In this document: one piece after another, positions 36,942-43,431 of the stretch
Position numbering within the stretch: position 1 is the stretch's first letter
How the letters are laid out: each line of letters starts with the position of its first letter
NCBI GenBank assembly: GCA_947453295.1
Contig: CANGGD010000002.1
Location: 1 to 53,636 of the forward strand
Reading direction: 5' to 3'
Length of the DNA stretch: 53,636 bases
Source: Chitinophagaceae bacterium
Lineage (GTDB): Bacteria; Bacteroidota; Bacteroidia; Chitinophagales; Chitinophagaceae
Made by a program: the position numbers and the translations under genes
The notes under the pieces: model-generated
Told to the model about the DNA's origin: nothing
Seen by the model: the letters and a program-made list of their open reading frames with translations, nothing else
Databases searched by the model: none

Positions 36942-38864
36942 TTGGAATCAAGCAATACAATATTAAAAAAATACTGGGGTCATAATACATTTAGACCATT
37001 GCAAGAAGAAATTATTAATGCAGTAGTTGCAAAAAAAGATGTATTGGCACTATTACCAACGGGTGGCGGAAAGTCGATTTGTTTTCAAGTACCTGCTATG
37101 ATGATGGATGGTATTTGTTTAGTTATTACTCCTTTGATTGCTTTAATGAAAGATCAAGTAGAAAATTTAAAAAAGAGAGGAATAAACTCATTGGCAATTC
37201 ATACTGGGATGAATTTTTTTGAAGTAAAACAAACGCTACAAAACGCAGCTTATGGAAATTATAAGTTTTTATATTTATCTCCCGAAAGAGTAGAGACAAA
37301 ATTATTTAAAGAATATTTACCAGCTATAAATGTAAGCTTAATAGCTATTGATGAAGCTCATTGTATATCACAATGGGGTTATGATTTCAGGCCGTCCTAT
37401 TTAAAAATTGTAAACCTTAGAGAAGAGCTTCCAAATGTATCAATAATTGCACTAACGGCATCGGCTACTGCAGAAGTTCAAGAAGACATTTCCAAGCAAT
37501 TATTATTTTCTAAAAACAATGAAGTTTTTCAACAATCATTTGCAAGGCCGAACTTGTCTTATAGTGTTTTGGAGCCAGAATCAAAACAATCAAAGCTGAT
37601 TGAAATTCTAAAACAAAATCAAGGAACCTCAATTGTTTATTGTAAAAGCAGAAAACAAACACAACAAATAACAGAGTGGCTGATTCAAAATAAAATAAAT
37701 GCAGATTTTTATCATGCAGGACTATCTAATGAACAAAGGCAACTTAAACAAACGCAATGGATACAAAATAAAATAAGTACAATCGTTTGTACTAATGCTT
37801 TTGGAATGGGAATAGATAAACCAGATGTGCGAACTGTGGTTCATTATAATTTACCAGAAAGCTTAGAAAACTATTATCAAGAAGCAGGAAGAGCAGGAAG
37901 AGATGAACAAAAAGCAACAGCTATTTTATTTTATGAAAAGAAAGAGAAAGAAGCATTATATAACATAAATGAATTAAGATATCCGAATATCAAAAGTTTA
38001 AAAAAGCTCTATATAGATATCATGAATTATCTTCAAATGCCTGCTGGTTCGGGAGAAGGCATTTCAATAAACTTTGATATAGCTACTTTTTCAGAACAAT
38101 TTAAATTAAATATTCTGGAAGTAACCTATGGATTACAGGCTTTAATTCAAGAAGGTTTGTTTTATATTTCTGATGCCACATTTAAACCTTCAACAGTTGT
38201 TTTTAATGTTACAAAAGAAGACCTAAAAACATTTGAGGAAACCCATTCTCATTTAGAACCGATGATTAAATGTCTTTTAAGAAATTATGAAGGAATCTTC
38301 GACTATCCAAGTAGCATATACGAATCTTTATTAGTCAACCAACTAGGCGTTTCAATAGAAGGAGTAAAAAATCAATTATTAGAGTTAAATAAATATTCTA
38401 TAATTAAATACCAACTACAAGCCAATAAATCGCAGTTGTTAATATTGCAAAATAGAATGTATCAGGATGATTTTAAGTTTGATATACAACAAATAGAAAA
38501 AAGGAAAAAAAATCATTCGCAAAAAATAAAAGCAATTATTGAATATGCTGAACTAAAACAATCTTGCAGAGCAAAAACAATTGCCAATTATTTTAATGAT
38601 TCTAGTACAGAAAAATGTGGAGTGTGCGACAATTGTTTAACTTCAACATCATCAGCATTAAATAATAAAAATTTTGATGAAATTTCAAAATTAATTTTAA
38701 ATCTTTTGTCACTTCAAAATTTGAACATAATCGCAATAGAAAATTCATTACATCATATTTCAAAAGAAAAAATAAAAAAAACTATTGAATATTTATTAGC
38801 AGAAGAAAAGATATACGCAGATAAGAATGGTGTGTTTTTAAAAAATAAAGGGACCGAGATATAA
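36942..38864 (+). CDS. recQ: ATP-dependent DNA helicase RecQ
   Basis: LLPTGGGKSICFQVPAMM, AIDEAHCISQWGYDFRPSY, QEAGRAGRDEQKA; Zn cysteines CRAKTIANYFNDSSTEKCGVCDNC; TTG start. Confidence 0.96.
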   Translation: MESSNTILKKYWGHNTFRPLQEEIINAVVAKKDVLALLPTGGGKSICFQVPAMMMDGICLVITPLIALMKDQVENLKKRGINSLAIHTGMNFFEVKQTLQNAAYGNYKFLYLSPERVETKLFKEYLPAINVSLIAIDEAHCISQWGYDFRPSYLKIVNLREELPNVSIIALTASATAEVQEDISKQLLFSKNNEVFQQSFARPNLSYSVLEPESKQSKLIEILKQNQGTSIVYCKSRKQTQQITEWLIQNKINADFYHAGLSNEQRQLKQTQWIQNKISTIVCTNAFGMGIDKPDVRTVVHYNLPESLENYYQEAGRAGRDEQKATAILFYEKKEKEALYNINELRYPNIKSLKKLYIDIMNYLQMPAGSGEGISINFDIATFSEQFKLNILEVTYGLQALIQEGLFYISDATFKPSTVVFNVTKEDLKTFEETHSHLEPMIKCLLRNYEGIFDYPSSIYESLLVNQLGVSIEGVKNQLLELNKYSIIKYQLQANKSQLLILQNRMYQDDFKFDIQQIEKRKKNHSQKIKAIIEYAELKQSCRAKTIANYFNDSSTEKCGVCDNCLTSTSSALNNKNFDEISKLILNLLSLQNLNIIAIENSLHHISKEKIKKTIEYLLAEEKIYADKNGVFLKNKGTEI

Positions 38865-38906
38865 ATCTAGTCCCGTTTTAAAATCCAATATCCTATGAAA
38901 AACCAA
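38850..38906 (-). repeat. Copy A of a 57-nt two-copy hairpin element (putative sRNA/terminator family)
   Basis: GGGACCGAGATATAAATCTAGTCCCGTTTTAAAATCCAATATCCTATGAAAAACCAA; 51/57 identical to 43280-43336. Confidence 0.8.
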
Positions 38907-39123
38907 GACGAAGATAATTAAAGAAATGGCAAGAAAAAAAATCAATAGTTAAAAAATGTGATAGAAAATGTTTTTTAAAATGATTTAAAACAAATGTTGA
39001 AAAAAGAAGCATTATTATGCTTTTTCTTAAAAGATAATCAACAACCTTTAACAAAAGATTTGAGAAATAAAATTGTAATAAAAAAATTGAATGACTAATT
39101 TGTAATCATTAAAACATTTTAAC

Positions 39124-43261: not shown

Positions 43262-43279
43262 AATGTTTTAAAATAAAAA

Positions 43280-43336
43280 GGGGCCAAGACAAAAATCTAG
43301 CCCCGCTTTAAAATCCAATATCCTATGAAAAACCAA
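43280..43336 (-). repeat. Copy B of the 57-nt two-copy hairpin element
   Basis: GGGGCCAAGACAAAAATCTAGCCCCGCTTTAAAATCCAATATCCTATGAAAAACCAA; matches 38850-38906. Confidence 0.8.
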
Positions 43337-43431
43337 CACAATATTACATCTATTAATGATAAACGATAAGCCAAGAGAAGCATATCTAATAAGTGAGTTA
43401 TTTTGAACGATAAGCGTGAACAATTCAAAAT

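Follow-up and report, generated by a model that had tools for sequence, protein, structure and literature searches.

The two copies of a repeated hairpin element found in the window, meaning the whole 53,636-nucleotide stretch of Chitinophagaceae contig analysed here, are near certain to be small RNA genes, and they belong to a multicopy family that is well supported by sequence as a sister of the FopS RNAs of Bacteroides, outside Rfam family RF04319 as defined. Sequence comparison establishes the gene anatomy, covariation, conservation and copy number of the family, the ancient position of one copy beside recQ and the resemblance to FopS. Taken together, we think it probable that each copy encodes a trans-acting small RNA (sRNA) of about 65 nt with a sigma-A promoter, a terminator hairpin and a 5' seed that would block AUG-AAA starts in the manner of FopS and GibS. 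Chitinophagaceae is a large environmental family in which RNA regulators are little studied, and this sRNA family has so far been absent from Rfam.

A first-pass annotation of the window described a 57-nt element at 38850-38906 (copy A) and 43280-43336 (copy B), 51/57 identical and with the final 30 nt the same. On re-reading the sequence, these figures hold (6 of 57 positions differ), and a repeat search of the window with up to three mismatches finds the same two places only, against 0.00 in shuffled windows. Both copies are present as described; the element itself is longer, extending into a T tract on one side and into a promoter -7 element on the opposite one. In minus-strand orientation, each copy is made up of a promoter element of the sigma-A type, TAnnTTTG, then a 5' box without pairing, GGTTTTTCATAGGATATTGGAT, that starts a few nt 3' of the -7 element, a short A/T linker, a GC hairpin with GATTTCTATC or similar as its loop region and, as had been noticed, a T tract after the hairpin. 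The features are as follows.

38838-38906, minus strand: copy A, predicted small RNA gene of ~65 nt and recQ-linked orthologue (covariance-model match 38841-38904, 83.7 bits; convergent recQ in many genera)
38909-38916, minus strand: copy A promoter -7 element TATCTTCG, fitting TAnnTTyG at the family spacing
38883-38906, minus strand: copy A 5' box TTGGTTTTTCATAGGATATTGGAT, predicted RNA 5' end and seed (exact in most copies though two mismatches were permitted; aligns with the FopS seed)
38850-38874, minus strand: copy A terminator hairpin (10 covarying pairs in 112 sequences; fold)
38840-38849, minus strand: copy A T tract of the predicted intrinsic terminator, TTTATTTTTT (from sequence)
36942-38864, plus strand: recQ, convergent with copy A (Pfam DEAD, Helicase_C and RecQ_Zn_bind; translation)
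43268-43336, minus strand: copy B, predicted small RNA gene of ~65 nt (covariance-model match 43271-43334, 81.5 bits)
43339-43346, minus strand: copy B promoter -7 element TAATATTG, one mismatch to TAnnTTTG (from sequence)
43313-43336, minus strand: copy B 5' box, the same as that of copy A (sequence search)
43280-43304, minus strand: copy B terminator hairpin (fold; covariation)
43270-43279, minus strand: copy B T tract of the predicted intrinsic terminator, TTTTTATTTT (from sequence)

The recQ product ends K-G-T-E-I-stop at 38864, within the left arm of the copy A hairpin, just as had been annotated. A gene on the plus strand was also considered and rejected, since the peptides that start at ATGAAAAAC are alike in M-K-N alone and differ thereafter.

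The stem arms are GGGAC/GTCCC in copy A and GGGGC/GCCCC in copy B, a change first read as compensatory and as a sign of selection on RNA structure. By itself the A-to-B change is a difference between paralogues; the case for selection is carried by covariation over 112 copies aligned to a covariance model. In that alignment, which was fitted to the structure so that its counts lean in the structure's favour, 10 of 10 hairpin pairs have two-sided changes, the doubly changed cells number 152 against 31 in shuffles, 91.2% of cells are paired (75.1% in shuffles and 31-58% when the structure is slid) and the covariation score is 0.507 against 0.213. The hairpin core with its double changes is also recovered by RNAalifold from a plain MAFFT alignment. 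Together with the T tract, the covarying hairpin would constitute an intrinsic terminator. Upstream of the box, 133 non-redundant regions yield a -7 consensus, TAtcTTtG, at a fixed distance; in 41 of them the strict form TAnnTT[TC]G begins 10-14 nt ahead of the box, and it occurs 3 times elsewhere in the 70-nt upstream stretches. From this fixed spacing, transcription from the housekeeping sigma-A promoter would likely start on or close to the GG of the box, making the box the 5' end of the RNA. As the box was partly chosen by exact search, its invariance was judged from mismatch-tolerant searches. Anatomy and covariation thus agree with the short minus-strand RNA that had been proposed, a putative transcript of 5' conserved segment, hairpin and T tract.

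Two further upstream arrangements were seen in smaller sets. A palindrome, TACC[CA]-N6-[GT]GGTA, lies at one fixed position ~50 nt before the box in 13 of the 133 non-redundant type I copies (L058 and L117, for example) against 0.015 expected in shuffles, and resembles the site of a NarL-type response regulator. At three loci (L018, L027 and L034, with 0.5 expected) the usual promoter is replaced by AAC-N15-18-CGTC, possibly an ECF sigma promoter.

The two copies are the sole ones in the window, and the genome as a whole, a 2.08 Mb draft in 173 contigs, has 8: six have exact boxes, one more is truncated at the edge of a contig, and the last is a variant. Three of these stand in tandem on one contig (C33, locus L004), ~142 nt apart; other genomes likewise have two or three of the sRNA genes in a row, at spacings of ~100-250 nt. 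Copies are carried by 34 of 35 other congeneric genomes, and with up to two mismatches allowed most of the listed matches are exact. An exact 21-mer scan of named genomes returned at least 118 stretches, and those listed bear Chitinophagaceae or broader or older Bacteroidota names. Searching the source genome and its relatives with the covariance model brought further copies with strong covariation: of 120 sampled genomes of the family, whose identity as Chitinophagaceae is judged from the named matches, 92 (74 of 97 genera) match, with 1-14 copies each, and among 296 genomes of the class strong matches are confined to this family. At the level of the order there is one weaker match in another family (G036, E 1e-6) that may be a relative. 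Weak matches outside Chitinophagaceae (E 7e-5 to 1e-3) were set aside, as the four that were read do not share the box. A pattern joining promoter and core, run over 396 genomes, is multi-copy mainly in Chitinophagaceae and in FopS-bearing families; singletons in other groups were rejected, those read having no remainder of the element. Copies are also found on two viral contigs, one of 59 kb with a DNA ligase gene and one of 236 kb with baseplate genes.

The closest known relative is FopS, which in Bacteroides thetaiotaomicron comprises 14 paralogous sRNAs of ~65-70 nt transcribed from sigma-A promoters; the 5' end of FopS base-pairs around the start of susC mRNAs and blocks translation, an effect countered by the RRM protein RbpB, which binds the 5' part of the RNA (PMC11697453). 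FopS has been described as conserved within Bacteroidaceae and as a regulator of glycan uptake. The Chitinophagaceae family shares the sigma-A TAnnTTTG element a few nt upstream of the seed, a predicted length of ~65-70 nt from box to T tract, a 3' intrinsic terminator hairpin, several to many paralogues per genome, copies on phages and, in part, a 5'-end seed, GUUUUUCAUAG..UAUURGAUUU (RF04319; PMC11697453). It differs by a 2-nt insertion in the seed (AUAGGAUAUUGG vs AUAGUAUUAG), by the lack of the AAGGUUAACAAA part in type I, by a different and strongly covarying hairpin and by its bacterial family. A scan of the window element at the Rfam gathering thresholds, a comparison that the first-pass annotation had suggested, was empty. 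When all 4227 families are ranked, RF04319 comes top for both window copies (16.5 and 17.1 bits, aligned nearly end to end), and again for type III (24.8 bits) and type V (28.9 bits), all of these scores being far under its gathering threshold of 56 bits. Against the published FopS seed, GTGTTTTTCATAGTATTAGATTTAAGGTTAACAAA (PMC11697453), the type I box aligns over 22 nt with one 2-nt gap, and 4 of 20000 shuffles align as well; the first two thirds of the seed are common and the last third is absent.

Five subtypes bear on this relationship. Besides type I, there are type II (AGTTTTCATAGGGTACGGATTAAAAA, one copy in the source genome on contig C104), type III (GGTTTTTCATAGGATATGGTTAAAAT), type IV (GGGTTTTCATAAGATAGTAACAAC) and type V (TTTTCATAGGATAAGGTTTAATGGTTAATGG), and all have TTTTCATAGG or TTTTCATAAG in common at the 5' end. 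Type V aligns better with the FopS seed, including the GGTTAA part and with the last third largely present (0 of 20000 shuffles as good), and it shares the further FopS segment TTTAA-GGTTAA. With a locally built FopS model, type V is recovered at weak scores (E about 0.06-0.7) and every type I box is missed; homology between type I and FopS is therefore argued through a chain that runs via type V, along with the common anatomy and the Rfam ranking. FopS-seed loci were also fetched from other genomes of the class, and the two that were tested are both RF04319 by Rfam. The main alternative, which we regard as improbable yet deserving of weight, is a trans-acting sRNA family unrelated to FopS, whose common UUUUUCAUAG arose from pairing with the frequent AUG-AAA-AA start and whose targets differ. 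The insertion and the divergence beyond the seed, the sub-threshold Rfam scores, the lack of a SusC preference in type I (below) and the fact that ATGAAAAA is the most frequent start in the source genome would all suit such convergence. Set against it are a match that is collinear over ~22 nt at nearly equal distance from the same type of promoter, the additional segment shared by type V and the top rank of FopS among 4227 families for four different members.

Some observations on these groups stand on their own. The type V loci (L326, L328-L335, L337, L339, L341, L343, L348, L351 and L363) have a longer 5' region and, in most cases, a terminator-like hairpin of their own; those scanned gave no Rfam match at threshold. 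Type III loci (L212, L222, L232, L234 and others) have in common a motif like CGTTCAC, ~50 nt ahead of the box, where an activator perhaps binds. The Bacteroides FopS 28-mer is present in 20 viral contigs (L398-L417) and also in plasmid collections, on records from Bacteroides, Phocaeicola, Parabacteroides and Prevotella. In Proteobacteria, multicopy sRNAs such as OmrA/OmrB and Qrr are Hfq-dependent paralogues with one invariant seed and differing promoters and 3' parts; they are alike in this multicopy seed design and unrelated in sequence to the Chitinophagaceae sRNA. GibS of Bacteroides, in which a conserved single-stranded 5' portion pairs with translation initiation regions (RF04182; PMC7366714), would be comparable in that 5' portion; it is longer (model of 142 nt) and has two seeds, and the window copies fail to match its model.

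That the RNA is transcribed, pairs and represses, and that an RRM protein might be involved, is what we infer for this family; by analogy with its relatives, the likeliest mechanism is that it blocks translation where genes start with AUG-AAA. The unpaired 5' end, UUUUUCAUAGGAUAUUGG, would be the working part: by pairing across the AUG-AAA start codon region in target mRNAs it would prevent translation initiation, like FopS and GibS in Bacteroides. Since the copies differ in promoter, several signals could then feed into one seed. The seed's complement, CCTATGAAAAA, resembles a start codon in its context. At start regions, type I forms duplexes of modestly better energy than shuffled boxes do (z -1.6 to -2.9), and ~80% of the best duplexes there cover the AUG. 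On a set of 89 SusC genes drawn almost wholly from related genomes, type V reaches z -4.0 with 0 of 150 shuffles as good; the value for type I is z -1.6, which does not improve on its pairing elsewhere. A SusC preference of type I, hinted at with 30 genes, was not upheld with 89 genes and cleaned controls, and the final figures come from a redone gene set because the earlier generic set may include windows touching sRNA loci. A target search of the source genome by duplex energy gave no excess over shuffles, and trinucleotide enrichment before ATG had too few cases. Across 80 genomes, sites of long complementarity included no conserved near-full-complement target, the matches being mostly type V sRNAs and scattered unrelated gene starts.

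The box might instead be mainly a binding site for a protein, for instance an RRM protein like RbpB, with the RNA acting as a decoy or sponge and not by pairing. This is an unlikely reading, although the box is more invariant than pairing with many targets would seem to require, RbpB binds the 5' part of FopS (PMC11697453) and the source genome has two RRM protein genes. Such genes are nearly ubiquitous with or without the sRNA and hence not diagnostic, the same segment has been shown to pair with mRNA in Bacteroides, and the complement of the box looks like a start codon.

Should start-codon pairing be the function, a sister family present in most Chitinophagaceae genomes would make FopS-type control older and broader than is known. 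More tentatively, there could be a Bacteroidota class of "anti-start-codon" RNAs, with at least five subtypes whose 5' core, UUUUCAUAGG or a close variant, is complementary to CCUAUGAAAA, and in which differently regulated copies, some of them phage-borne, tune the translation of many exported proteins with AUG-AAA gene starts. The covariance model, the recQ-linked reference copy and the phage-borne copies offer handles for experiment.

The genomic surroundings bear on the two remaining alternatives. A convergent recQ is adjacent to a copy in many loci and genera, Ferruginibacter among the named ones, at 44-60% protein identity, and a response regulator gene is often near these recQ-linked copies. 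Copy A is read as an orthologue retained since early in Chitinophagaceae. The covariation of all 10 pairs, the promoter at fixed distance and the presence of recQ beside copy A across many genera argue for an ancient gene and not for the end of an insertion sequence or MITE, which had been named as one result that would overturn the RNA reading; the flanks, moreover, differ between copies. The ORF downstream of the sRNA is directed towards it in 69 of 90 copies (median gap 53 nt). The overlap with recQ is thus an instance of a common arrangement, and the hairpin may terminate both the sRNA and the opposite gene. It is very unlikely, on the other hand, that the element yields no RNA itself and is only a bidirectional terminator, REP-like DNA repeat or the end of a mobile element, since a terminator needs neither an invariant 22-nt box nor a promoter at fixed distance. 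Extremely unlikely, too, is a leader or attenuator acting in cis on the gene downstream, which a hairpin and T tract close behind the box might recall, as a same-strand gene lies downstream in 21 of 90 copies only and the hairpin varies while the box stays constant, so that a box-hairpin switch is not kept. As for copy B, its methylmalonyl-CoA mutase neighbour recurs beside the sRNA at two other loci, L151 and L030.
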